Shown here one piece after another: positions 29,802-52,205 of a stretch of DNA of 64,000 bases. Location: contig CP021227.1 in assembly GCA_003999685.1 (NCBI GenBank), positions 124,001 to 188,000 of the forward strand. Direction: 5' to 3'. Numbering within the stretch: position 1 is the stretch's first letter; the number at the start of each line of letters is the position of its first letter. Under the pieces are notes generated by a model. It did no database searches and had not been told where the DNA came from. It was given only the letters and a program-made list of their open reading frames with translations. Made by a program: the position numbers and the translations under genes. This DNA is from Taiwanofungus camphoratus. Its lineage: Eukaryota > Basidiomycota > Agaricomycetes > Polyporales > Taiwanofungaceae.

Positions 29802-30909
29802 ATGATGGACGACTTTCTGCGCGACTCTGCGGCGCTCTTCGGGGACGCCGCCGAGGACGACGACGGCCGTGTGTACTACGGCCCGCTCGTGTTGACGGCC
29901 GCCCCCAAGGTACGTGGGATCGCCGCAAGCAGCCGGGGCAGCCCCTGGCAGGCACGCACTCACAGCGGCGCTGTTCAAAAGGCTAACCACGCTCTCCAGG
30001 AAGGAAAGGTGTGTCTCAGCTCTATCACCGTGCGGCCAGAGGGACTGCGACGTCGGCTGACTCTGGCGCGGCGCCGCCCGTCCCGCGCGCAGGCCAACAC
30101 CTTGCTCGCGGACCACCTCTTCTCGCCGTCGCTGCTGCTCGCCGAGCGGATCGAGCGCGGGCTGGTCCCCCTCGCGCACCGGACGGGTGCGTTGGGCTTT
30201 TTCTCCCGGGTCCGTCGAGGCGCGTTCGTTTCCACTGACACGTGGGCGCCAGTGATCGAGCTGGGCGCGGGCTGTGCCCTGCCCTCCCTGCTCGCGTCGA
30301 CGCTCGCGCACCCGCCGTCGCTCGTCGTCGTGACCGACTACCCCGACGAGGTCATACTAACGAACCTCGAGCAAAACGTGGCGAGGAACCGCGACAGCGT
30401 CAGCGCAGGCTGCGCGGTCCGCTGTCTGGGATACGAATGGGGCCAGGACGCGCGTCCGCTGCTGTACGTACGCCTTCCCCTTCTCCTTCTCCTCATCCCT
30501 CTCCCTCTCCCTCTCCCTCTCCCGCACAAACTCCTATGTGAACGCTGACGGGCGCAGCGCGCTCCTGCCCGGGCCCGGCGGCTTCGACGCGGTCATCCTC
30601 TCCGACCTCCTGCACTTCGACCAGTCGCACGGCGCACTGCTCGCGTCCCTCTGCGCGCTCCTCCGCAGGACCGCGGCAGCGCGCGCCTACGTCGCGGCGG
30701 GCAAGTACACGCCCGCGCGCGTCTGCGACGGCTTTCTGCGCGCGGCGGGCGCGGCGGGCCTCGTCCTGGAGGAGGGCGCGGACGCGGGCGGCTGGCAGGG
30801 CGCCATGGCGGTCAGGGCGGCGGGGCTAGACCGGGAGCAGCTCGGGGTGAGGAAGGGGATGTGCAGGTGGTGGGTTGGCCGGTGGGCCGATGGGTGCGAG
30901 GCAGATTGA
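29802..30909 (+). CDS. EFM7: Class I methyltransferase, Nnt1/Efm7 family
   Basis: Seven-beta-strand methyltransferase of the METTL21-like group. The yeast member Efm7 (Nnt1) methylates the N terminus and Lys-3 of translation elongation factor eEF1A; older annotations call it nicotinamide N-methyltransferase. Five exons, 29802-29909, 30000-30008, 30093-30186, 30253-30463 and 30558-30909, sum to 257 residues. Seen: EGKANTLLADHLFSPSLLLA near residue 37; the SAM-binding motif VIELGAGCALPS; acidic post-motif VVTDYPDEVILTNLEQN; LGYEWG; and FDAVILSDLLHFDQSH (motif II and post II). Exon 2 is a 9-nt microexon coding EGK, required to link TAAPK to ANTLL. Codons are very GC-rich at the third position, unlike SEC24 next door. 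The start could be either of two adjacent ATGs (29802 or 29805). Confidence 0.9.
30497..30523. repeat. CTCCCT microsatellite in EFM7 intron 4
   Basis: About four and a half perfect copies of CTCCCT directly downstream of the 5' splice site of the last intron. Pyrimidine-rich on the coding strand. Confidence 0.9.
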
Positions 30910-32866
30910 GTGTTGTGCTCCATTATGGGGGCCTTCGCGTGCGGAGGCGCCGGTGCGGCACCTGCCGCGCGTCATCGGTGCCTTGGGGCCTTTAGAGGGA
31001 GTGAATCGCCGTCATGGAAGGCAGGAGAAGGGCGTGTGTCGTTTTACGTCGGCGATGTTCGTTTCTGCTGTGACGGCCGAGCTATGTCCGTGGAGCATGT
31101 ATTCTTTCTGGCGCGCAAATGAACAAGACAGTTACGCTAGCTGGTGGTGCAGCCTGAGGAGTGTTTATTATGTACGCCCAGGGTGCACGGCAGGCTTGTG
31201 AGTGGCGGCTAGTGAACAGCGTCAAGTGCGCGGGACACGTCGGAAGACGCTGCTGCTGCTACTAGAATGTCGGTAGCTGTGCGCTGATTAAAATTCGGCA
31301 CATCCGCCAGGCCTCAGGACGGACGAGGGCACGGGCGGATCTCTGTGGCAGAGAACATCAGCGGCTGGAGCAGCCATTACGTGCATGCATGCATGCACGC
31401 ATGCACACGCCACCCCAGCCCGCGTCCGCCTCGGTGTCTTGATCCTGCCGGCCTGACAGCCAGATCCTGGTCCTCGAAGCGGGGCGGGGCGTGGTGTGCT
31501 GATCTTCGTGTTCGACCCAGAATTCGGCGGCGGACGTGTGCGGCGGTACCGTACGTACACGCCCTCGTCCCCGCTCAGGGCCTCAGGGCCCCAGGGACCC
31601 AGGGCCCTGCTTACCGCATTGCGGCCTGCAAGCCCGCAGCGCGACGTATTCTATCCGACGAACCGAAGCCTGGGATGCCTGTCGCCCCAGGAGCCTGTCG
31701 GGCAGGGATCGCGCGGTGATCCGCAGCGAAGGGGGGGGAACCCGTTCGTTCTCGCGCGCCGCAGGCGGTGGGAACGGGCTGCCCGCGGGCAGATCGCCGC
31801 GGGCCACGGCGGAGGCGTTCCAGAACACACCAGAAGCGCGCCGTGGCTGCTGTGGGCCCGTGCAACGACCGCCTGCGCGCGCGGGCGGCGAGTGCGGGGC
31901 TGCGAAGGCGTACCGGAGTCGCGGGGAAGCGGTGGGCCGGCTTCTGTGGCCATCCCTCGAGCGCCAGTCTTCTTCACAGGCCACGCACGATGCTTGGCCA
32001 GTGACGCGTTGACGACGGAGCATCGTTCGGTGCAAGTACAGGAGCTGTCAGCGAATCGCGCGCAGCGCAGGTAACGTGCCCAATATCACAGACCAGACGT
32101 AGCGTTTAGGGCCACCCCACCCCCGGGGCAAAAGCATGCCAATAAACTCGCGTACCCACTATATACGGTCGGTACGAACTGGCAACTCGGACAGGGCAGT
32201 TCGTCAGAATCCCGGCCAATGTCCAACGGCGCCGAGGCGTGCCGTCTTCCAGAACGACGCTCCCCCCCCACCCTGCGAACGCTGCTGTATCTCTGCCAGT
32301 TGGCATCAGCCAGCGCAGCGCAGCTTGGGGGGGGCGGGCGTGCCGCCGCCTGTGCCCCATCTGTGCACAAAGGGCCCTTCCCACACCAACGGTCAGCAGG
32401 CCGCGAGAGCTCCGCGCCGGGACGCGTGCTCAGCTGGCCATCCCCGTTCCCGAATCCTCACACCCGCGCATCGGCCGGACCTGCGCTCTGAGTCGAGCGT
32501 GGCGAAGGGCAGGGAGCGCGAGGCGTGAGGCGTCGGGCGGACCCGCGGCCGGCTAGTGCAGCGAATTCGCAGCGTCCGCGCGCGTGGGCGACGCAGGGCG
32601 GGACGAGCCGCTGCTCGGGAGCGAGAGCGAGAGCGAGAGCCGCCAGCGCCTTCCCGACACATCGGGGACCGGGGACCGGGGCCGCGGGCTCGGGGCTGAA
32701 CGCCGCGTGCCGCTGATCCAGGGGGGAGGGGAGGGGAGGGGAAGGGGGGAGGCTTACGCAAGCGCAGCTTACGCGGACGGGCCTGCTGTGTCAGATGGGC
32801 GGCCGCGCGCGGCGGAGGCGACGCGGTGGCTGCGCGTGATGGAGCTTGTCGGACGGGCGTGGGCGT

Positions 32867-32905
32867 GGGGCGTGAGTGTGGGGCGTGAGTGTGGGGCGTG
32901 AGCGT
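32867..32905. repeat. 13-bp tandem repeat, three copies
   Basis: Unit GGGGCGTGAGTGT repeated three times head to tail; the third copy differs at one base (GTGAGCGT). Confidence 0.9.
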
Positions 32906-33460
32906 GGGCCTGACGGGCGTGCGCACCAGCTGTGGCGCCGGTATGGATGGCGGGTCCCATCAGACGGAGAACGGGGGGGGGCACCCAAAGAACACCCGCT
33001 TCCGGGACGCCTGCAGCCAGACGTCGCACGACGGCCAACGTCGTGTGCTCCAGAAAACATCGCATGGCCCGTGCACGCACTGGCGTGTCCAGGCGCCGGG
33101 TGGGAAATGCGGGTGGCTGCCAGGCCTGTCCAGACTGCCGGGGCGAGGGGTCCCAAGGTTCCAAGGTCCCAACAGCACAATGTGAAATGGGGGGGGGGGC
33201 GAAGGAGACGGGTGAATGTTGCCACCCGATCTGGCCCCGTGCAACGCGCCGCGTGACCTGTACCCCCGTCGCACCCTGCAACGCACTGACTCGCCCCCCG
33301 GTGGGAGCTCGCACTCTGCGGCCTGATCAGCGGCGGGCAGGCGTCCGCGAAGACGCAGGAGCAGCAGCATATGAGAGCCGCTCGGGCAGCGCCGCGCGCA
33401 CTTGGCATGCGCAGAGGACGCGGCTCCGCGGACCTCCCGCGAAGCAGGACAGGATGCGCG

Positions 33461-33484
33461 ACAGAACGACAGAACGACAGAACG
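33461..33484. repeat. 8-bp tandem repeat, three copies
   Basis: Unit ACAGAACG repeated three times without mismatch. Confidence 0.9.
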
Positions 33485-36206
33485 GTGCTCTGCTGGGGAC
33501 GGGGGACGCGAGCACGGCCACCAATCGTGGGCCCATGAAGCCTTGAAGCTCTGAAGAGCCAAGACGGCCCCACGCGCGACCCGTTCGCCTGGGCCGCGCC
33601 ATTTGCATTTGCCATTGAATATTGATGCTCAGAACCTTCGCGAGACAGATACCGGCGTATGTGTTCTCCCCCCTGCAAGCGTCCGCGGCGAGCCACGCAC
33701 GTCGAGCTGCCCACGCGAGCCGGGCAGCCGGCGCTGCGATTCGACGGATAAGGTCCAAGGCCCAAGGGGCAGCAGCCACGCCGTTTCTGTCAATGTCGTA
33801 TCGCAGCCGCTGCTGCCCAACCTACGCGGACTCCGCGGAGGCTCCTGGAGAGAAAGGGGGAGAAGGGGGGGAGAACGACGGCCGCAGGGCGTCTGTGCGT
33901 TCGATGGCGTGCGTTCTCGCGCGCGCATAGGGAGCTTGCAGGGAAGCCCAGGGTGCCCGTTCGCCGTTCTGCACGCACGCCGGCGCGTCGATGGCCCGCG
34001 CCGTCTGCCGCTTCATCCGTCCGCGCAGAACGGCGCACCGTGGCTCCTTCACATCGTCAGTCGTCAGTGCAGCGACAGAGCTAGAGAGGCCAGTGCAACG
34101 ACGCAGCGTCGAGGGCCGCGCCGCGCGCGAGCCCCGCGGCCGGCGCAGTGCAGGCAGGGGGGTGGATCCCAAGGAGAACCCCGCCCGTGTAGTCGCAGCG
34201 GGTGCTTCGCGGGCTTCTCGCATTCAAAAAGGCTGCGCGCTTCGCGAAGGCGAAGACGAAGCCGCGGGCGCACCGGTGCGGATCGCGGCAGCGGCAGCGC
34301 AGATCGCGTCGCATGAACGCGCGCACGCAGCACACGCGCACATCGGGGGCGAACGTCGGCCGCTGTGGGGCGCGCGTCGGCCGCCAAGCGAGGCGCGCCG
34401 CCACTGCTCTGCTCTGCCGGCCTGGCGCGGGCCCGCCGGCCGGCGCTGCGCTGCGCTGCGTGCGCGGGTTCTGCGGAGAGCGTGGTGGCGGCGGCCGTCG
34501 CGTGCGACCCGGCACTGTGGAGACTATGCCGCACTGCCGCTTCTCCCCTCGATTGTCGGCTGCGCGAGGGCCCACGCGCTCGGGTAAGGAAGAGGAGAGG
34601 AGTCAGCGCGCTCAGGCTCGCGTGCGGGCGGCTGCGTGGGGCAGCGATAGTCCTAGCGCCCGCGCGCTGCGGGGAAGGGGATGTGGGTGGGGGGTGGGGT
34701 GGGGGGGGAATGCAGAGCTGCGTGCAGATCCGGGTGCAGATTCGCAGGCGAGGGCAGCGTGGATCCGGGGAATGAAGAATGCAGCGATATCGATGTCGTA
34801 CACAAGCGGGCAGCCGGGGTGCATTCGACGAGAGGGGCAGGCTTCCGGGGGCGATTTGCAAGGCGCGGAGGGCCAAGAGCACACAGGAAGGATGGACAGA
34901 CCTGCGCCGCAGGCAGAGGGGAGCATTCTCGTCTGATGGTACACCTGGCCGCGTCTGGTATTCTCCGTCGTCCAGTGTCCGTCGCACCCGAGCGCGGCCC
35001 ACTGGCTGCGTTGGCCCCTGCGTGTACTGCAAGCGAGACGACGCGTGCAGACCACAGCGATGCGTCCGCATATGGGACACGGCAGAACCACGGATGTTCG
35101 GCCGCGCAGCCGGCTCGACAGGAAGTGCTGTCCTTCGTATGAAGGGGGCCTGGACCGCCTTCTGGGGGAGACGAAGGGATGAAGTCATCGCGCGTGGGGC
35201 CACCCGTCTGCGCGGGATGGGCACGCTGCAGTACAAGCGGTGGCGATAAGCCGGGAGCGCGCCGCGCCGCACAGATAGGACGATGGAAGGGTGTACATCC
35301 TCCGAGGGGGCCGTGGGCAGAGCCAGACTGTGGGCGGACACGCGTTTGGGTTCGGGGAACCCGGGGAAGGCGTCTGGGAATGCAGGACACCAGGTCGTCG
35401 CCACGGTCCCTGAGATCGTGGGTGCGATCGAGGACGGTGGCCACCATCGAGCGCCACCATCTGTTCGTCCGCACGGAGGAGAGGGAGGAGATACCGGATT
35501 GGGCGGCGCGATGGGCCGCGGAGCTCGAAGCTGGTGGCGGGGTGGGATATGTCGGCAAGTAAGCGGCACTGACGTCGACGGCTGGCCAGACGAACGATCG
35601 GCCCGTGGGGGATCTGGGCGACAGGAGCTGGTGCGTGCGCGGGGCCTAGCCGAGGTGCGTTGTCAGATGCGGGGACACACAAAGTGGATCGCCTGGAGAA
35701 GACTGCCGGATAAGGCATGAGGGGGCACCAGGGAGCGTGTCTGCGGGAGGTCGTGTTCGCCGAATAATAAAGATGCCCGCGAGATGGTGAGCCAGATGGG
35801 TGGTCCGCGTTCCTTCACATCAGCTGCTTGATCAGGCCGGCGCTGCTGGTGCTGGTGCTGGTGTGCTGGAGGACCCTGCGTCGGATTGATTTCATACATC
35901 TGCTGCCAGCGGAACAGCCCTCTGATCTGGCAGAAGCCTCGCCCCTCTGACGAGCCGTCATGCCTTCATAAACCAGGCATTCCGCCTGCTCCGTTCTCGC
36001 ACTCGCCCCTGCCACCCGCTGTCCTTGGCGTCTCGTATCCCTGGCTGGTTCTCTCTTCATTTCCTCCCCATTTTTCTCCTCTTTTTCTTTCTGTTTTCGC
36101 CATCACCGGCGCTCGATCTCACCGCCAAGGCCTAGTCCTCTCCTCTTGCCTCTTTCGACCACCCTCGTCCCATATCCCCGCCCCCGCCACCCGCCACCCC
36201 TGCCCG

Positions 36207-37595
36207 ATGGCCTCCTCCTACTCCACTTCCTATGACCCGACCGGCCTCTTTTCCTTCCCGCACTACATCGACAACACCTCCCCCGTCGATCAGACTTACA
36301 TCGCCGGTGCTTCCTATATAGGCAACGGCGCCAGCGATCACCCCCGCCCTTGGCAGTCCCACGCGCCGTCATATCCGTCTCTTTCATTAGACTCGGGCTC
36401 GCCCTTCTCGACCCCCCCTGCCTCGTCCCACATGGCCTACCCCGCCGATTATCCAGAGTCGTCCCAGAGAACCGTCTTATCGGGCCAGAGTTTCGCCTCG
36501 GCAACCTCCTCCTCCCCCTCCTCCTCCTCCTCGCGGTCCTTCGCGTCCATGTACTCCCAGCCCTCCCCGACACACACCCCGACCCTCCAGCGCGCCCTCC
36601 GCAGCAGCGGCCTCTACGCCATCGCCGGCGACGAGTCCGCGCAGCAGAGCGGGGACGGCAGCCAGCCCCCCTCGCACGTCAAGACCGAGGAGGAGCCCGA
36701 GGACGTCTTCATCTTCGAGGCGGGGTGCCCGATCGGCCGCAGCAGCACATTGACCACGGCCCACCCATCCTCGACGCCCGCGGCCCTCGCACCGCACCGC
36801 TTCGTCCCCCGCGTCGGCCCCTGTTCCGCACACGCGCAGATGGCCGAGGTTCCGCTGCGCGCGACGGGCGCGTCGCGCGAGATGCGCAAGATGATGGGCG
36901 CGTTCCGCCTCGACCCCTTCGCGATGCACAACGGCATCCGCAGCGCCGCCGTGGCCGCGCCCCCCGCCGGCATCGAGATCGGGCCCCTCCGCGAGGAGCC
37001 CGTCATGCTCGAGTTCCAGGTGCACCTCGACCACGCGCCCGGCGCCCCGCCCGCGTGCTGGTCCCCCGGCCGCAGCCCCTCCCCACTGCTCTACCCGCTC
37101 GAGGACGACCCCGAGGACAAGTGGGCGCCCGCGCTCGAGACGTACCCCGCCTTCGAGCACGGCGAGAACGACAGCGGCGAGTTCGCGCCGCTCCTGACGC
37201 CCGCGCAGTCGCTGCACTGGAGCATGAGCTGCCCGCCCGGCGACGCGCACGCCGACCCCGTCCAGCCGCTGTCGAGTGCGCCCTTTCTCTCGTCGCTGCC
37301 CGTTCTCGCCGTGTGCTGACCCCTGCGCCGGTTTGCCACAGTCTTCCGCGCCGCGCAGCCGGCGTCCGCCCACGCCCTATCGCTCAAGGCCGCCGACCAC
37401 CACCACGCGCACCATGACTCCACGCCGTACCTCGAGCGCGACGCGTACCGCTCGTACGTGCCGTCTCAGCCGCGGCCGTCCGCCCTGCGCTGCCAGCAGG
37501 AATACACCGGCTACACGGGCATCCCCGCAGGCACGCTGGCGTGGTTCCGCAAGACGCTGGTGCTGTCGGACTCTCCTTACACCGCATGCACATAG
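36207..37595 (+). CDS. Ser/Pro-rich protein of unknown function
   Basis: Two exons, 36207-37275 and 37342-37595, join to 440 residues. The N-terminal 130 residues are rich in Ser, Tyr, Pro and Thr (MASSYSTSYDPTGLFSFPHY; a poly-Ser block near 100). Then comes an acidic patch KTEEEPEDVFIFEAG, a more ordered middle (EMRKMMGAFRLDPFAMHNGI and EEPVMLEFQVHLDHAPG), and a C-terminal part with a His cluster DHHHAHHD and GIPAGTLAWFRKTLVLSD. The composition recalls fungal transcription regulators, but no zinc finger, homeobox, bZIP or other DNA-binding motif is visible, so that is not claimed. Strong GC3 bias and the same frame across 1 kb support real coding. The large GC-rich upstream region would suit a developmentally regulated gene. 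Confidence 0.75.
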
Positions 37596-40051
37596 CACGA
37601 GGTGAATGCTCTCCGTCCCACACGCAGCGCGCGGCATGCTCATGGCTCGGCGAGTCTGATGTGGCCAGGAGCGGTCGGGCGCCGCGGGCGGTTCTCTCGC
37701 AGGGCGGAGGTCGGCGCAGGGGCCGCTCCCGCAGACGAGCGCGCCGGTGGCGTAGACATGTATTTTGATTCGCGGAACGGCGACAGGGCAAAAGGGCACG
37801 GCACGATATGTATTACTTCTTGGTTTAGCACGCAAATCGCACTCGCATCTAGAAGGGGGGGGGCCCGAGCAGCAGGGCAGCAGCAGCAGCAGCACACAAT
37901 GTACGAACGAGAGCTGTCCGAAACACCGCATCCCATCGTGCATGTTGTCGCGGCGGAACATGGCGTCAGTAGAGGGCTTATGGGAACATAGACACGACCG
38001 ATCGCGACGCAGTCGCAATACCCTGTACACTGTGATATCCCGGATCATATACGTCAATGTAGACAGTCTAACGTGTGATTGACTCGGGACGACGAATAGG
38101 TTCACGCCAATTTCGCGCGTGTGGGCATTGAACGCCGTCCATTCAGATGCCCGCCGAAATCGTTTGGCAGCGTCGATTTGGCGAGTTGCCGGTCGGCCTC
38201 TCACAGGTCGCGACGCGCGGGACACGAACAGCGCGCGGGACTCGGGCACGTGCACTGACTTCACATGCCTGGCATCCGGTTCGCAGAACGGTCTCGAGAA
38301 CATCAGTCCGGCGAAGGCAGCCAAGTCCGACCAGACAAGACAAGACAATGTACGTGTCGGAATCTACACCGCGGGTACCGCTGGGTGTACGCGCGTACGC
38401 CACCTCCTATTTCCCGGCCCCCAGTCCAATCACAGGCTCTGAGGCTCACGCAAAAGCCTCTGACATCGGCGGCGGTGCCGACAGCGTGGAGGCCATCTGC
38501 ACTCTGGATGTCATTCAGTTTCAGTTTCGCTGGGACGCTGAGTGTCGGAGGTAGCATCGGGCTGATCAGCTGCTGGAGCAAGTTGCCCCGGAGGATAGCG
38601 CACAGCGGCGTTTGTTCTGAGCGACCGCCGGCCACGCGGTGGTGTCGCATGCGTGCGTTCATGCAACGTCGAGTGGAGAAACGCAGCATCAGGACGCCGG
38701 TGCGCTACAGGCGCGGAGCGCCACATCGGGCGCTGAGACATTGTCTACCGCGTGTACAGGGGCCGCCGTGCCTGGTGCGCACGCGCTTCAATAACGTACT
38801 TACAAGGACCTTGCTGCGCTCGTGTATTCGCGTTTGGCTTGCCGTCGCAGTGGTATGCTTTTTTGGGGGAGTTGTGCGGCGCACGACCCTGGGCGCTCCC
38901 CGCGGGGACATTCAATATAGGTAAAGTGTGCCAACAGCCGCCGAGCCGCGTTCTGCACGCCCTGCAGCTACGCCTGCGCCGCGGGTCTGGACTTGAGAAG
39001 GGGGAGTGACACAAACAACGACCGCGCACGGTGAACCCGATAGCAAGCGATATAAATGTGAGCGATAGGAGATGCTGATAACGAGGCCCGCCCTGCCCTG
39101 CGCAGCACCAGCGCATTTGCACCCTTTTGCGAAGGTGATGAGTAATCGCCTTCTAGTCTTGGAGAATCCCGCGATCTATCTTGCACGGAGCGCCTCGCAC
39201 CAATTGCCATTACGGTGACTCGAGGGCACTTACCAGCCGCTCGTGCTAGAAAGGAATCAGAGACGCACCCACGTTATCGTCCATCGATCCCACACTGCGT
39301 GGAGGCAGAAGCGAGGAGATCGGTAGCTTCTAGCAGTGTGATCTGCGGACTCTGGAAGGGCTCGTTGTGTTGAGGTCGTTTTACGTCCTCGTGCACACGT
39401 TCAGAGGTGCGCGAGCCACTTGCACCTTGGCGGCCACGATCAGGCATCCCGGAAGCCTCTGCGCCCGACGCCCCCAGCGACGGAGGTGGTGGAAACAAGG
39501 GTGCGAGGGCATCAGATTCAAGCATCAGGACGGTTCCTGTTTCCTCCGTTCCAATTCCACGGCCCGGATATGGTGAGTGAGCCTAGACCAGCACGTTGTG
39601 TCTCAGAGCAGGCTGCAGTCCGCCAGGCAGCGAGGTACGACGAGACAAGGATTGTTCGGACACAGCGACCGCCGCCATTGTCAAGGAAACGCGCTCATCG
39701 CATCTGCGAGTAGGGCGCGCCGGAAGATAAGAGCAGAAGGGGATCGTCGGAACCACAGAGCGAGCGACAGAGTGGCATATTCCGTCGCGCCGGAGTGCAA
39801 CTTGTCGCGTTGCGGAGCGCCCATAGAGCCACGTGTTCGAGGCCGGCCGCCGCGGGAACCCAAACCGCACGCGACACAGCCCTCCCCACGCCCAGCCAGG
39901 GCATCTTGAAATACTGTAACTTGCTCTGTTCTGACGCTGTGTCCTGCACAACACACTCTCCGCTCCCGCCCACTCCTTCCCCTGCTGCCTGCATCCGTTA
40001 CCACTGTTTTAGGGCCACCAGCTGAACGCGAACAGCGCTGGGTTCCGTGAC
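37596..40051. other. Unassigned intergenic region, about 2.5 kb
   Basis: The first few hundred bases continue the GC-rich block, then GC falls gradually. A CAG-type trinucleotide run lies near 37870-37895. Several 80-200-codon frames overlap on both strands without any recognisable product. The right end must hold the phosphodiesterase promoter. Confidence 0.45.
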
Positions 40052-43788: not shown

Positions 43789-45823
43789 CTACGCTTTGAA
43801 TTTGTACTTCAACTGGCACAGCAGATCTTGCTCGCGGTTGAATACCGCCTTGTCGATGTAAAAATCACCGCCGCCTGCGAAGCAGAATATCCACCCGTCG
43901 CTGAATGCCCCAGTGAGACGGTTCAAGACGTCCTGCATTGAGAGCGAGTTGAGCCCCCGCTTGACGCTGTCGAAGAAACGGGTCACATCTCCGTCTCGTA
44001 GCCACGCCTCGTCGGCTCCGTGGGTTACGACTGGGACTATCGGATCCGCCTTGATGATGAGCTCGCCGTCTTTGACGCCGTCGAAGATGAGGTTGACCGA
44101 CCATTCACCCTTGAGCCAGCCGCTGAACCAAATTAGTATTGTCCATAAAGACCGTGAGAGACGAGCACCTACGTGGATCTCGGAAGGTCGATATGGACAT
44201 AAAGGTCTACGTCAGTAGTGCCCATCACGGTGATTTCACATTTGCCATTCTCGTTATAGCCCTCCGGCAAGAAACACCAGTTTGTTGTCGTTCCTTTCAT
44301 GGACAAACGACACGTGAGACAAAACAAATACGGTTGTAGGCTGAAGGCTGACCCCATTCATAGACCCGGAAAAGACCCTCGTCGTCATCTTTGCCATTCC
44401 TGTTATGGTATTTGTACCACTTGCCAGGAGCATTCTTTACTTTGTCCTTAGCCTTCTGGTCTACGTCTTTTGTTTCGACAGCCTTCCATTGAAGATCCCC
44501 CGGCTTGGCATCCCACCACCCCATGTGACCTGCGAGTTTGTATTGCACATATATCACATCCTTCGAACGCCACCAAGCTTCATCGACTATCCAGGTCGAG
44601 CGTTTGTTGAACTCAACTAGAGCAGGGAGAAGCCAACCCTCAGCAAAGATTGTCTTGGACAACGCCACTGTCCCGTCGTAGCTCGCAGAATAACTATCGG
44701 GAGCAGGGACAACCCAATTGGCCTAGGAAGATGAGAATGGAGGAGGGCCGTCAGCGCGAGCACACAACGCAAGCAATAGGGAACAACGAAGCAAAGGACC
44801 TACTGATACAGGAAGCAGCTCACGGGGCATAGGATGGCCACCCGTCATCTGGAGGTATACGAGCATGGTGTTCTCGCCGACCCGTCCAAGATCTGATGCG
44901 GACTTGACGAAGGGTAAGTTCTGGAAGGTAAGATCCGTCGGGGGCAAAGTAGGCACCGGGTACCCTTTTTGAGCCTCCGTTACCTTTGGGAGGTAATGGA
45001 TGACAGAGTCGTTCTTATTCTTCGCGAGTTCTGCAAAGTAGTCGTTCATGAAAAGCTTCCAATATGACTCGGCCGCCGTGTCGCCCGAGGGTAAATCGAT
45101 CTTACTCCTCGCGGCGTCGTAGTTGGCGATATTAGCACCTGTGAGAAAGAAGGTAAGCACTGTTGACAGAGTCACAACAAAATAACAAACTTGTGAAATC
45201 GATGAGTAGCTGTTGCACGCTGTAATCATTAAGCTTCTTGAGACGATCCTTCACGTCTTGGGGAAGATTTGTGAAAGCGGCCAACTCGAAAGCAAGATTG
45301 ACGTGCAGAGCGAGCACCCAGTCTCGGACGGAGCAAGACGCTTGCCTATAAGTTTAATTTTCGTTGTCAGACCGAAGTACATAGAGGATATACAAACTTC
45401 CTCACTGAGCTTTGGGACCATATCCTTTCCAGTATTTAAGTGTCCCGGACTGTACATACAAGTTCAGGTTTACCCTATATAGGAAGAGTCATCAAGGACA
45501 GCACCTTGAGCTTGATGAAATAGTAGACCGCCCGATCTACCATCGGGAATGAAATTGTTAGAGTCAATGCACACATGTCCGAAAGCGATCGACGTACTGT
45601 CTGTTCCTAACTGAAGCTCGATCTCTGGAGGGTCGAGGTCTGCAAAGAGGCCGGCGTAATCATCATCTGCAAGAGTCGCAGATATCTTCTTGAGAGTCTT
45701 GTTTGCTTTGTACATGTTCGCAAGTTGCTTATTTATGGCCTTCTGGGAGATGGCGGTAATTTGATCATACGCGTAAATCTTGGTGGACGAAATACGTTCT
45801 TCGTTAAGCTTGTTGTAATCCAT
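43789..45823 (-). CDS. Uncharacterised fungal protein, TULIP-like fold suspected
   Basis: Six exons, 45823-45474, 45345-45191, 45138-44804, 44722-44353, 44293-44173 and 44122-43789, sum exactly to 554 residues. No signal peptide or membrane helix. I recall a family of fungal hypothetical proteins with the same landmarks: N-terminal YDQITAISQKAINKQLANMY; DWVLALHVNLAFEL followed by YSVQQLLIDFTSANIANYD; a mid-protein block TVALSKTIFAEGWLLPALVE; an alternating beta-type region NGKCEITVMGTTDVDLYVHI; and a C-terminal GWIFCFAGGGDFYIDKAVFN. The pattern of amphipathic strands around an N-terminal helix resembles tubular lipid-binding (TULIP) proteins, which would imply lipid binding, but this is inference from memory. 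The frame continues upstream of 45823 without an ATG, so a further 5' exon is possible. Divergent from the gene at 46542. Confidence 0.75.
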
Positions 45824-46541
45824 GTTCGGGAGCGGGGGACGTGCACTGGGCAGGGCATCTTGAACGTGTTCTTGTATAGTTTCGGGCGCTAGCACTTGGA
45901 CGTTCGAATGCTTGCTCTCGCGCAGTTGAAGCCAGGTCTGTGTTTGTTCGTAAGATGCATCGGGATCGGCAGACGTGTTTTCGGCGCTTGTTGCGAGTCT
46001 CTTTCGAGGAGTTAAACATTCACCGCCATTCAAATGGCTTCTAACTCGGTCGCCTCTGACACTTTTTATTCAGCATCAGGAACATTGTCCCTGATGTTTA
46101 CGGGATCAATTGTGATAGGATACGATAGAGCAAATGAACGGCTTCTAGACATCAATTCCGACACCTCCATGGTCTGGAGATCCACAACTTCCGGTCTGAT
46201 ATCACAATCACCTCCGCTTGCGCAACTCGCTCATGTACTACTTCAAACAGATTATCCTTGATAGGCATAGCCAGTCATGCAGAAGTACATAATGGCGTTC
46301 CACACGACCTGAACACGCACCATCGGCCTCCCAATCGCGCCGCTGCTATTCTACGACTTCAATTCTTCCTGTCAATCTATAGTGGCAGCTTGGCGAGGAT
46401 GACTGTTCTTTCAATGCATGCTCCGAATGTCAGGGCAGAGCATGTGTGAGTACCCAGAACGGGGGTAGAATCCACACCGACCCCCCTGAGCCTTATAACA
46501 CGTATTTCCTTGTCATTTCATAGCCTCCCAATTCGATCACA
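45824..46541. promoter_or_regulatory. Shared promoter region of the divergent gene pair
   Basis: A 718-bp stretch between the two start codons. Part of it next to 45824 is open in the minus frame and may be 5' leader or coding. No element recognised. Confidence 0.45.
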
Positions 46542-49500
46542 ATGGCCAACATCCATGTCGACAGCGAGCTCATGCTCCATATGATGCCTGCACAACCTAT
46601 CACCACAGCCAGACGGTTTACCGCAGTGCACGACGAGTCTCACAATCCCCTACTCTTCTCGATTTCTTCTGATGGCCACTTCCTCGCTATCAAGTCCGAT
46701 GGTTGTGGCAGGAATGTCATTATTGATCTCAGTAACATTCTCAACATTCGTGATACCGCTCACGCATTTGCTGTCAGTCAATCCACTGACAATTCCGGCA
46801 TGATCTTTGTCGCTTTCGCAACGGAAAACGGTCCATACACGAGCAATCTCCATGTCTTTTCTCCGCTCCGTCCAAATGACCTTGACTTGCCGGGGACTGA
46901 GTTGAGGAAGAAGCTTCTGATATCGTCCGGCCAAACTCAAAAGGCTCGCATTACTCAGCTCCATATGGTCAGTCCTGATGCCCCTGCTCTTGAACATCCT
47001 GAATTGAAGCGTTCTGCAGAATCGTTCCACAAACGGATCATACCCCTTACTCGTTTCAGTTTATACCGATCCGAATGGCGACGTCAATATCTCTCGCATT
47101 GCAGTTGCGGCGACGAGTTGGAAATGGACAACCGATCTGCACATCCCTGAGCTTGCGAAGGGTTTTATAGGCATGTGCGCGGGGACGCTGTCCATCGGAG
47201 ATGGAATCTTTGTCCTGTACACCGTTCTCGGAAAGCCCTCGCTCATGTTCTCGACCACGGATCCGGGTGACAAAATCACAGTCGACCTCAAGCTCCCATC
47301 GTGTGAGACATCTGCCTTTTTACTTGGTACGACCCATCTAATATAATCCTCTGCACTGCTAGCTTCTAATCCAGGCAGTCTGTCCACGTTCTATGATGAC
47401 GATGGATACTCCAACGTACTTATTGCTGGGGGAGGTCTGTATTACTTGAACGCAGACGACTGTACCCAGTCCGGAGCCGTGGCTAAGCAGATCTCGAACA
47501 ATGCTCTATATAGCCAGGTAGAAAATATCTTTGTCGCTCAGGCAGGGGACGCAATTTCAGCTTGGTTCGAGACCAAGGAACATGCATTGGGCTATCAGAG
47601 GGTTCGAAACGACGGCACCCTCGAGGGCGACGCAGTGCCACTACTCCCTTCCGGCTCAAACGCCGAATTCGCCCCGCTCATCGACATGAAGTCGAAATCC
47701 CAGTTACTCATTATCCTCGACGACGATCTGCGATTGTCTATCCTAGAACAATCCGTCGACACTCGCATTTGGAACAAGACGCCATTTCTCATACACCAGG
47801 TACAGAAGATGACAGAAATATCCGCATTCGTCTCCCATATCCAGATTAACGACGAACGTGGTTGGCCCCTCGGCCTAACGTCCTTCATCCTTTCCAGTTC
47901 TGCTTGGGTCACTGTCCTGATTAACGGCACTCAGCATTCGATCGGTACCACCGGTATAGCTGTCGAGACAGACGCTAGCGGTGTCATCACTCTCATTGTT
48001 CCCTGCCAAGACCTGTCATGCTACGAATTCACCCTCAGGAACGTCTCGGGCTCTTCTCACCTTCCTGTGTCCGGTTACGTGATCAATCCTGCCCAGAAGG
48101 TCCAGGACAGATTGGCAACGATCAAGACAGGAGACGACCTCAAGAATGCGAAGACATCAGATGGAACACCATTTCTCCATGGTTCTGACGCTTCAGACGC
48201 CGACATCGACAACGCTGCGAAAGCGATTGCAAGCATGCACTCCATTTCTACAGATCGGATGCTAGCTGTTGCTACATCGAGGACCGTAGCTCGTTCTGGG
48301 TCGATCTCACGAGGTGATGGTGTCAAGCACGTCGCATGGGAATGGTGGGAGTGGGTCAAGAGGCAAGCCACGAAAGTCACGAACTGGATTGTCGAGAAAG
48401 TGTCCGGAGCTTGGCACTTCGTCGTTCATCTCGCTGGAGAAGCTTGGAGTTTCATACTTGACAGCGCGAACGCCGTTGCCAAGGCTGTCACTTTTGTGCT
48501 CGAGAAAATCAAAGTCGCCTTCAAGAACGTCATCAATTTCTTTGGCTTCCTGTTCAACTGGGACGACATCAAGAATACCAGAGACTCGATTAAGATCATG
48601 TTCAATGCAGGCCTCGATTATGGGTCAAACTTCCTGAGTAATAATAAATCGGTAGTCGGGAAACTGTTTGACGGGTTGGAGGCTCAGCTGTTGAAGTCTC
48701 GAGATGCTCCCATTCCAAAGGATATCAAGGAGAGACAGGAAGGACCAGAAACATCATCAACAAGCAAAGATTCCGCTACACGTTCTGCTCCCGCAAATAT
48801 AGGCTCTTACCATTTCAGCCAGGCAAAGAGTGCCGAGCCTGCCGTCATCGGTGTTACCGACTCCCTCGTCACGCTTTATCACGATATCATTGAACCCGTT
48901 TTGCAGGGAGTCTCCGAGGCAGTCCAAAAGATTGCGAAAACTTTGAGCCAAACCTTTGACACAGACAAAAGCATATCTATGACACAGATTTTCCAGCAGT
49001 TGGGCGAAGATGTCCTCAGAACTTTTCTCAGCATCCTGAAGAAACTAGTTACTGGTCTAATGGACGTTGGAAAAGACCTGATTGAAGGGATCAAAGGTAT
49101 ACTAAACGCGAACGTCGATATTCCAGTCCTTACTCCTCTGCTCAAGTCGCTCGGTGTACCGGATTTCTCGCTCCTTGATGTTATCTCCATTGTGTTGGCC
49201 ATTCCTGTAACTGTCGTGGCGAAGGCTATTACCGGCAGTGCTCCGAAACGGATCCAGACGTTTGACTATCGGTCAATGGTCGAAGGTGGACAGCTCGATA
49301 AGCAGTCACTACTCGCTTACAACGACTTGGCATCATACTTGGACATTAGTTATACCATGTTACATACAATCTACAAGGTCTACAAGATTTTCACTGCAGA
49401 AGCACCCGAGCCGGAAACATTCAGCTATTTATCTTTCATTCTCGATATCGTTGTTCAAATTGGAACGTTCCCTTACGACACAGAATCTCCGGGGCGAGGA

Positions 49501-49960
49501 GTCAGGTAAATCTCACCGTTCTTCTTGTATCGAACCAGAGACTGACCATAACGGTTGGTCGGTAAGAATTGCAACCTGGGGTATCCTAACTACCAATGTT
49601 GTCATCCGCGCCGTATGCCTCAAGGCTAAAGTCCCGTCTGCCAAGATCCTCGCAATGGCCGATATCCTCATTGCCGTCGTGACCTTCGCACTTACGCAGG
49701 TCGTACACGGACTTCAGTTTATAGAGGACTACCCGGAGAAGGACGAAGCTGTCACCGGCCTTTCCATCGGATCGTCCATTTTCACGGTTATCGGGGGTGT
49801 TGCTGGTGGGTACGGTGCTCTCGTTCCAGAACCGTTAGAGAAAGCCGTCGCTGCCATCATCGTCGCAGGCGGACAGGCTTGCGTTTCCGTAGTCAAAACA
49901 GGCAAATGCGCAATCGCGATCAAAAAGAAATACCACAATTACATCGTAGAAGGTGTATGA
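46542..49960 (+). CDS. Large uncharacterised fungal protein, helical C-terminal half
   Basis: Exons 46542-46967, 47020-47326 and 47375 to about 49490, plus a last exon ending at 49960, give about 1,080 residues. The first three join in phase; the last junction is unresolved (a 41-nt intron from GGA|gtcagg to ccagag|ACT fits the frame but is very short). The N-terminal half (to about 500) is beta-rich with repeats such as FSISSDGHFLAIKSDG and LIDMKSKSQLLIILDDDLRL, perhaps a propeller. Then a Trp-rich amphipathic stretch WEWWEWVKRQATKVTNWIVE (about 565-585), helices KVSGAWHFVVHLAGEAWSF and IKVAFKNVINFFGFLFNWDD, and a C terminus with long hydrophobic segments (ILAMADILIAVVTFALTQVV; SIFTVIGGVAGGYGALV). 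I recall the Trp-rich part and NWDDI block in other fungal hypothetical proteins. Function unknown; membrane association is inferred. Confidence 0.72.
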
Positions 49961-50631: not shown

Positions 50632-52205
50632 TCACAGCACGCGCACGGTATCCACAACATTGTTGAGCTGTTCCAACACATCTGGATCGAACGAGTCACA
50701 TTGAGAGATCTTCAGGTAAAGTATTGGTGTGACATCTGAACCCGATTGGTGGCGTGCGCAGACAACGCGCAGGAGCTCGTGTCCGGTCACGTCCATGCAT
50801 TGATGAACACATAGTGCTTGGAGTTGAGGCAATAACCAAATCCCCGTCGTCGCCGGTCCTGCCGCGAGCAGATCGAATATCTGCCCTCCAAGAAAGCCCA
50901 GTCGCGGGGAGGACAGCGACAGCGCAGTTAGCTGGGGAAGTTGATGTAATGCGCGCACAAATGGGACCAGAGCTGGTCCGTCAATGTTGCACGTGCGCAA
51001 TTCGAGCTGACGTAGTGCGGAGAAACGTGTGGGAGATGCGAGTGAGATCCGCGACAACCAATGTATGTTTTCCTCTGCAGATGGCTCCATGTTGACGGAA
51101 AGTCGAGTCAGAGCAGGGAGCGAGGTCGAATCCAAGAAGAGCGAGATATTGATGGAATCTACAAGGTTGAAGGAAAGAACCCTTAATGATGGGATTGTGG
51201 TCAACACAGGGGTGCCTTGGAAGATATCTTCGTCGCCATTCAATGTGAATACGACCGACTGCAACCGCAGTTCATCTAGCTCCGGCGTGGAAGTCAGCAT
51301 TGTGAGCAGCTCCTGGAAAACGACGCTGAAGCGACGGTTTGCAGATCGGCGATATTGCTGGTCGCGCATGAGGTATAACCGCTGAAGGGTCGGTAATTGC
51401 ACACGAGTACAAATGAGCGGAATATGTTCGAGGATGACCGTCTTCAAACGGGGACATGCCTGCGCTAACAGCGTGCAATATGGCGTCGTTTCTTGTAGGT
51501 CTGTTGCACTTATCCGAATGTGCAGCTCCTCCAATGATGGTCCCAAACTACTGATGTGCTCACGTAAAAGCGGAAGCGAGTCCCAACACGGTGCTGATAC
51601 TCGGAATGAGAAGCACCGAGCCAGGTGAGGCCGCAATTCCGTCATGATGTCATGCATCTCCTCATTATCGATATAGCCAAGGTCTATGTCAACTAGGAGC
51701 TTGCATGTCTGCGAACGCCCAAGGCAGGCCCGCAATTTACGCAGGAACGCAGGTGTGCGTCCAAGACCCCACTGGCTATCCAAAATAATGTACGTCCACA
51801 AGGAAGGTGTTCCGAGTGCTGTATCGCGCCAATAGTGGCACACAAGCAGTATGATTGGAAGCAAATTGGTGTTTTCGTGAACGCCAAATTCGAATATACG
51901 GGACAGTAGTTCAGGTGGTAGCCGAACAATGAGAGCTTGACTGGCAAGAATTTGAGCCTTCTTGAGTTTAAGACGTGCGAGTTCAGCCTCTAGCTCAGCC
52001 ACAGATTTGTCAATCTCGACTATGTCCGGTGGCGTCGTTCGTGGATCGCTGCCCAAGTAATCTCTGCATTGAGAACATGCGTAGCTATCATCAAAACGAC
52101 TTACATGGTTCGAGGGTCCTGCACTTCTTCATCCTCGGTCACTGGGGAGACAATGTCGAGATCGTCCCACGAACCAAGGTCGTCGAAGGAAAGTGTTAAA
52201 GCCAT
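50632..52205 (-). CDS. F-box protein with leucine-rich-repeat-like body
   Basis: Two exons, 52205-52105 and 52063-50632, join to 510 residues. An acidic N terminus (MALTLSFDDLGSWDDLDIVS) is followed by a short coiled coil IDKSVAELEAELARLKLKKA, typical of the large mushroom F-box family, and the F-box LIVRLPPELLSRIFEFGVHE with VCHYWRDTALGTPSLWTYII (residues about 80-130). The rest contains irregular LRR-like repeats (CPRLKTVILEHIPL; FSALRQLELRTCN; LPQLTALSLSSPRL; LPQLQALCVHQCM). Likely a substrate receptor of an SCF ubiquitin ligase; the target cannot be guessed. No lesion. It is not closely related to the F-box copies at 8-18 kb. Confidence 0.9.

Follow-up and report, generated by a model that had tools for sequence, protein, structure and literature searches.

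A divergent fungal gene pair encoding an OrfX/P47-like TULIP protein and a putative lectin-headed partner has counterparts among paired and fused bacterial genes

The subject of this report is a pair of long genes, here called A and B, in a 64,000-nucleotide stretch of DNA from the fungus Taiwanofungus camphoratus (contig CP021227.1, positions 124,001 to 188,000; hereafter the window). Judged from sequence, A and B together represent, in a fungus, a conserved module of two proteins, possibly a two-part weapon or membrane tool not described before. The original prediction, made from the letters of the window, had described two divergent genes whose starts lie 718 bp apart and neither of which carries a known domain, and both points stand. 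Our spliced models (Table 1), in which all introns are GT-AG and 36-81 nt long, agree with the first, and neither protein falls into a known family: fungal A and B match no Pfam or NCBIfam family at E <= 1 and have no sequence relative among PDB chains, where B gives one match at E = 0.31. The two genes are not chance frames, since profiles built from bacterial homologs only recover both of them and none of 1000 shuffled copies. With E-values scaled to 100,000 sequences, A was recovered at E = 5.5e-39 (aligned residues 13-300) and B at E = 1.1e-152 (residues 3-541 and 558-1078), while the seven remaining matches among the 2448 entries come from frames of A and B in the window. In the fungal genome (33 Mb, 15 contigs searched), B is single-copy and A has one weak paralog on contig 7 (E = 0.0022), a multi-exon gene (L012 3927-6129; G000:C7 about 1822926-1825128) with no B homolog seen within the 10 kb read around it. 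The region between the two start codons is a possible shared divergent promoter; its guanine plus cytosine (GC) content is 0.499, CCAAT occurs at 46331 and 46528, and its plus strand has no match to TATAA[AT].

Relatives of the two genes lie side by side in bacteria, and the adjacency that would be expected of a two-component system, as the pair had been pictured, is strongly positive there: over all loci seen, 34 (33 bacterial, 1 fungal) have A beside B or joined to it in one gene, and three have A without B, namely those in genomes G733 (contig 75) and G410 and on fungal contig 7. When B was searched in translation against 72,556 plasmids, six places on five records matched, from Stanieria, two Kovacikia plasmids, Undibacterium and Methylocystis; one place was read per record, and the second B place is on Kovacikia plasmid pA. 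A weak match in Variovorax was also seen. In Stanieria and Methylocystis, a hypothetical protein directly upstream of B, identified by gene position and not by an A search, is related to fungal A (BLASTP E = 1e-7 and 8e-7, as single comparisons), and no A-like gene is present at the Undibacterium and two Kovacikia B loci read. Because A as a query matched no plasmid and the Stanieria and Methylocystis upstream proteins each matched only themselves, A-like genes are rare in plasmids. A scan of species genomes with a core alignment of the Stanieria and fungal proteins gave ten B loci (Aneurinibacillus, Shouchella, two Aquimarina, Corallococcus, Cohnella, Pedobacter, two Paenibacillus, and a Bacteroidales genome), nine of which have an A homolog directly upstream on the same strand, the Bacteroidales locus (L028) being without A. 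This arrangement occurs in five bacterial phyla. Of 15 bacterial pairs, with starts chosen mechanically, 13 have a gap of 6-134 bp between A and B, and in the other two the genes overlap by 41 or 65 bp. The Corallococcus A frame (L024 4547-6247), which overlaps B by 41 bp, has an end unlike that of other A proteins, as if the frame changes.

Counts within larger taxa, which are less biased samples, give the same picture for two of them. Among the 246 genomes of the Bacillota order to which the Cohnella genome G006 belongs, four have A and seven have B; all four A genes adjoin B on the same strand, and G093, G097, and, weakly, G187 carry B but no A. In Myxococcota, the phylum of G005 (195 genomes), A is found in 18 genomes, all of which also have B, and B in 26. 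Of the 20 A loci there, 19 are followed by B on the same strand, with the profile matches 25-1119 bp apart, and the exception is the second A of G733; the DNA was read at G005, G770, G775, G780, G733, G739, and G783, and the remaining loci were taken from match positions. Fisher tests of co-occurrence, uncorrected for relatedness, give 2.4e-7 for the Bacillota order, 1.4e-19 for Myxococcota, and 0.023 for Bacteroidota, and the first two become 8.3e-6 and 1.0e-18 when the centre genome is removed.

The link between A and B goes beyond proximity. In three related myxobacterial genomes (G770, G775, and G780), one open frame contains the A profile first and then the B profile, in proteins of 1810, 1904, and 1816 aa, respectively, by chosen start. 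That genes which elsewhere are separate neighbors occur fused is strong evidence that A and B act together. Furthermore, the distance matrices of A and B correlate over 16 pairs with r = 0.935 (0 of 20,000 permutations as high), and with r = 0.614 for pairs under 35% identity (0 of 5000 permutations). Operon-like order in bacteria, fusions, and co-evolution show that A and B are functionally coupled. The divergent rather than operonic fungal genes, and the coverage of one fungal genome, would suit a chance or hitch-hiking neighborhood without joint function, but adjacency repeated in five bacterial phyla, the fusions, and the co-evolution contradict this, and we give it scarcely any credence. 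The same data bear on the idea that A serves as immunity protein or inhibitor and silences a toxic B in the producer. Same-strand adjacency and the excess of A loci with B over those without would fit such a role, but natural fusions of the two are present in three genomes, and fusions of this kind are unusual for an immunity protein, which weighs against it. OrfX2, which has the fold predicted for A, is in addition described as a partner of a toxin complex (PMC13030710), and we regard an immunity role as improbable.

That the two families always occur together, as first proposed, is nearly true of A and of one group of B and untrue of another group of B, which lacks A. A quick tree built from 50 B rows has 34 paired rows and one unpaired row on one side and 15 unpaired rows on the other (support 94, drawn open); the pairing label needs two changes, whereas shuffled labels need 13.8 on average and in none of 500 shuffles as few. 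Rows whose matched part was shorter than 350 aa or whose E exceeded 1e-6 were excluded beforehand, and the weak B matches of G187, G618, G660, and G820 (E = 2e-4 to 4e-4) were left out. The sole unpaired row on the paired side is an additional B of G733 (L127 14226-18213), split over two overlapping frames and located on the same contig as a paired B. Fungal B lies among the paired rows, on a long branch (2.15) with support of 88, which is not starred and drawn open, and we therefore claim no horizontal transfer.

Table 1. Features of the gene pair and of its fused relatives. Positions are those of the window, except for the fusion genes, which are given by locus; parts of B marked as homolog model are predictions mapped from a bacterial protein.
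Feature	Position	Strand	Description
Gene A	45823-43789	minus	Predicted OrfX/P47-like TULIP protein, 545 aa, 8 exons, spliced model
Gene A exons	45823-45598, 45536-45505, 45449-45406, 45345-45191, 45138-44804, 44722-44332, 44293-44173, 44122-43789	minus
Region between A and B start codons	45824-46541		718 bp, possible shared divergent promoter
Gene B	46542-49960	plus	1089 aa, 4 exons, spliced model
Gene B exons	46542-46967, 47020-47326, 47363-49505, 49567-49960	plus
B head	46593-47793 (approximate)	plus	aa about 18-388, beta-propeller resembling PLL/PHL lectins, homolog model; spans two introns
B Ig-like beta-sandwich	47812-48087 (approximate)	plus	aa about 395-486, homolog model
B helical core	48328-49257	plus	aa 567-876, Trp-rich, amphipathic; conserved columns, amphipathicity, low-confidence model helices
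B C-terminal part	49258-49957	plus	aa 877-1089, hydrophobic by Kyte-Doolittle windows; spans intron 3
A-B fusion genes	L124 2251-7683, L125 4097-9811, L126 3030-8480		Three related myxobacterial genomes

The original description of A as resembling tubular lipid-binding proteins (TULIPs) could be sharpened to the OrfX/P47 type by structure prediction for a bacterial homolog. The predicted structure matches OrfX3, OrfX2, and P47 in all ten PDB chains at E <= 0.001, with YceB, BPI, LBP, Takeout, and SMP clearly weaker in the same list, and comparison with solved TULIPs shows agreement mainly in the N-terminal half. This modeled fold supports the assignment of A as a TULIP protein, in the broad sense, of the OrfX/P47 type. 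At the level of sequence, P47 is the best PDB match of a 22-row A profile (E = 0.0016), over two short stretches neither of which is significant alone, and a 12-row A profile did not find P47. Membership of A in the Pfam P47 family (PF06597) was considered and rejected, fungal A matching no family at E <= 1 and none of 12 A members matching at E <= 0.5; the Pfam P47 model run against the fungal genome exon by exon likewise gave no match at E <= 1.

For B, the architecture was read from the model of a bacterial homolog (L020) mapped onto the fungal protein and from the fungal sequence. Residues about 20-385 of the homolog model form a propeller (predicted local distance difference test (pLDDT) scores mostly 65-88), whose best structural matches are lectins from Photorhabdus, Chromobacterium, and Burkholderia, so the head of fungal B is predicted to resemble a PLL-lectin-like propeller. 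Residues 392-480 of the model (pLDDT about 64-85) would form an immunoglobulin (Ig)-like domain, which was called by eye from the strands. Next comes the amphipathic, Trp-rich series noted originally, and it is borne out: 8 of the 15 Trp of B lie within residues 570-644, and over residues 567-872, 15% of 18-mers have a hydrophobic moment >= 0.5, a share that is 1% in shuffles and was reached by none of the 300, while the Trp block at residues 567-690 alone shows no significant amphipathicity (42 of 300 shuffles). This core contains the conserved motifs FLFNWDDI (residue 640), IPVLTPL (831), and AIPVTV (857). The propeller filled the VIA-align match lists for the B model, which thus do not cover the fold of the helical core, and a match of the B profile to a designed helical bundle (E = 9e-5) was set aside as composition bias of amphipathic helices. 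The hydrophobic end, also noted originally, is present in Kyte-Doolittle windows at residues 979-1008, 1020-1038, and 1052-1070. Paired bacterial B homologs are 898-1232 aa long, and two shorter ones (L023 and L026, ending at 898 and 903 aa) lack this C-terminal part. A Kovacikia plasmid encodes a 2288-aa B-type protein with hemopexin, PQQ, and tectonin heads (L019 2742-9608). The lectin-like heads and the Ig-like domain could also be those of a mere adhesin or lectin scaffold, with A as its lipid-linked anchor, by which cells stick to surfaces or prey whose membranes stay undamaged. This would leave the amphipathic helical core and the hydrophobic tail unexplained and is at odds with the lack of any export signal seen in a crude test, and we consider it rather unlikely.

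From fold and sequence, we infer a lipid or membrane role for the pair, the helical core of B most likely acting on membranes, and we propose, with a probability of about 0.5, that A and B form a two-part toxin-like complex in which B binds glycan and membrane and A is a lipid-binding partner. The separate proteins would come into physical contact to form one complex, the propeller of B would dock on target glycans, and its helices would insert into or lie on the membrane, while A would bind lipid or shield the hydrophobic face of B and help deliver it. No signal peptide was seen in A or B by a crude, hydrophobicity-only test (highest 11-residue mean 1.91), so the proteins are most likely kept in the cytoplasm and come into play when the cell is consumed or breaks open, as do other defense proteins of the fungal cytoplasm. 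We infer a toxin or defense role. The main competing explanation is a self-directed lipid or envelope module, in which the pair would move or organize lipid in the membranes or wall of the producing cell itself, B anchoring to polysaccharide of the producer and A carrying lipid. TULIP proteins are reported to transfer lipid in many cells (PMC6791001), and an A-B fusion would place a lipid carrier beside a glycan and membrane anchor. On the other hand, the rare and patchy occurrence of A (4 of 246, 3 of 395, and 18 of 195 genomes) does not resemble that of housekeeping lipid transfer, the crude test showed no signal peptide, and no envelope-gene neighbor is widely shared, so that we judge a self-directed role unlikely, though it deserves serious consideration.

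Several observations weigh against a two-part toxin-like complex. The structural model of the A homolog is poor in the C-terminal half, with pLDDT below 50 from residue 248, and the good alignment of fungal A is limited to residues 13-300. Propellers are a superfold, those of integrin and splicing factor being only about 1-5 Z units below the lectins; with a modeled helical core of low confidence, membrane insertion by B is proposed from composition; and a Pfam scan found no known toxin domain in B. The lack of a signal peptide was judged from hydrophobicity only. The three fusion genomes are close relatives and may represent a single event, and B without A forms a separate group of 15 tree rows, so that B-type proteins do not all require A. 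Finally, in Bacteroidota, the phylum of G007 (395 genomes), A and B are each found in three genomes and only G007 has both. In G007, both A copies are paired with B. The 11.3-kb contig of G410 carries an A-family protein (L060 6237-7889) but lacks B, and G445 and G618 give partial or weak matches to B. An A-profile match in G332 (E = 1.4e-4) was judged by eye to be a different, secreted protein and was excluded from the tally of A loci.

Flanking frames were clustered for the plasmid, species-genome, and first G-handle loci (L015-L029 and L054-L062), the myxobacterial loci not being included. Among these, no third gene goes widely with the pair: the largest cluster other than A and B spans six loci in varying places (one tested member is a histidine kinase), two further clusters span three loci each, and two close Paenibacillus loci have six downstream genes in common. 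No set of orfX1, orfX2, orfX3, and p47 was seen beside the pair in the clustered loci, where BLAST could miss a divergent extra TULIP gene. Phage records gave no match to Cohnella B, no relative was found in two scans of viral contigs, and PADLOC anti-phage models gave no match at E <= 0.1 to five bacterial A, B, and fusion proteins. In the window, gene B is adjoined by an F-box protein gene (50632-52128, minus strand), and Bud13 and F-box protein genes are among those recognized in the fungal DNA. A GC-rich island occupies positions 30001-39000 (61-71% GC per kb, compared with about 50% around it); within it, 33500-35500 matches nowhere else in the fungal genome, and four long frames tested in it match no Pfam family at E <= 0.01.

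No description of the A-B pair was found in open-license PMC papers, preprints not being covered. While orfX-p47 genes beside toxin genes are already known, the pair is possibly a class of its own. More specifically, and tentatively, it may represent a new class of binary, lectin-guided, membrane-active complex, present in fungi and at least five bacterial phyla, with an OrfX/P47-type TULIP as fixed and sometimes fused subunit. What the pair offers is a two-gene system outside botulinum clusters, in environmental bacteria and a fungus, in which a TULIP has one fixed partner and is sometimes part of one polypeptide, so that the role of OrfX/P47-type TULIPs becomes testable with two proteins and without botulinum toxin. 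If the new-class reading is true, the helpers of botulinum clusters would derive from a wider, older role as partners of membrane-active proteins; if the defense reading is true, a lectin-headed family would be added to fungal defense proteins.

The closest known systems for A are OrfX2, OrfX3, and P47 of the botulinum and PMP1 clusters, which it resembles in the TULIP fold modeled for its bacterial homolog; in sequence, the A profile gives the weak match to P47 described above. OrfX1, OrfX2, and P47 are reported to attach to lipids in vitro (PMC7020563), and the same 2019 source, which termed the roles of OrfX1-3 and P47 unknown, describes most examined orfX-p47 clusters as adjoining insecticidal toxin genes and P47 as fused to lectin-like domains in some of them. 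A adjoins a large partner in a comparable way. OrfX2 binds NTNH and promotes oral toxicity, and a 2026 review presents it as the first of OrfX1-3 and P47 for which a direct link to the toxin complex was shown (PMC13030710). The pair differs from these clusters in that no A member scanned matches PF06597 (Clostridium_P47), no orfX1-3 set accompanies A and B at the clustered loci, and B has no Pfam toxin domain; the other TULIPs named above are the weaker structural matches. For B, the nearest relatives in fold are the seven-bladed PLL/PHL propeller lectins (those of Photorhabdus, as well as CV39L and BP39L), which the first 390 residues of the B homolog resemble in the model and to which B has a weak profile match. 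However, these lectin chains are 336-363 aa long, whereas B is not a free-standing lectin of ~350 aa and adds Ig-like, helical, and hydrophobic parts, its sugar binding being predicted from fold. Mushrooms are described as making cytoplasmic nematotoxins with lectin domains (PMC13324453), and among these the chimerolectin CCTX2 resembles B by analogy only, as a cytoplasmic protein in which a glycan-binding head is joined to a part of unknown function. CCTX2 is reported to have four beta-trefoil domains; B, by contrast, shows no beta-trefoil (ricin B-like) head, matching no Pfam family at E <= 1, and is modeled, from its homolog, with a propeller at its head and has a TULIP partner.
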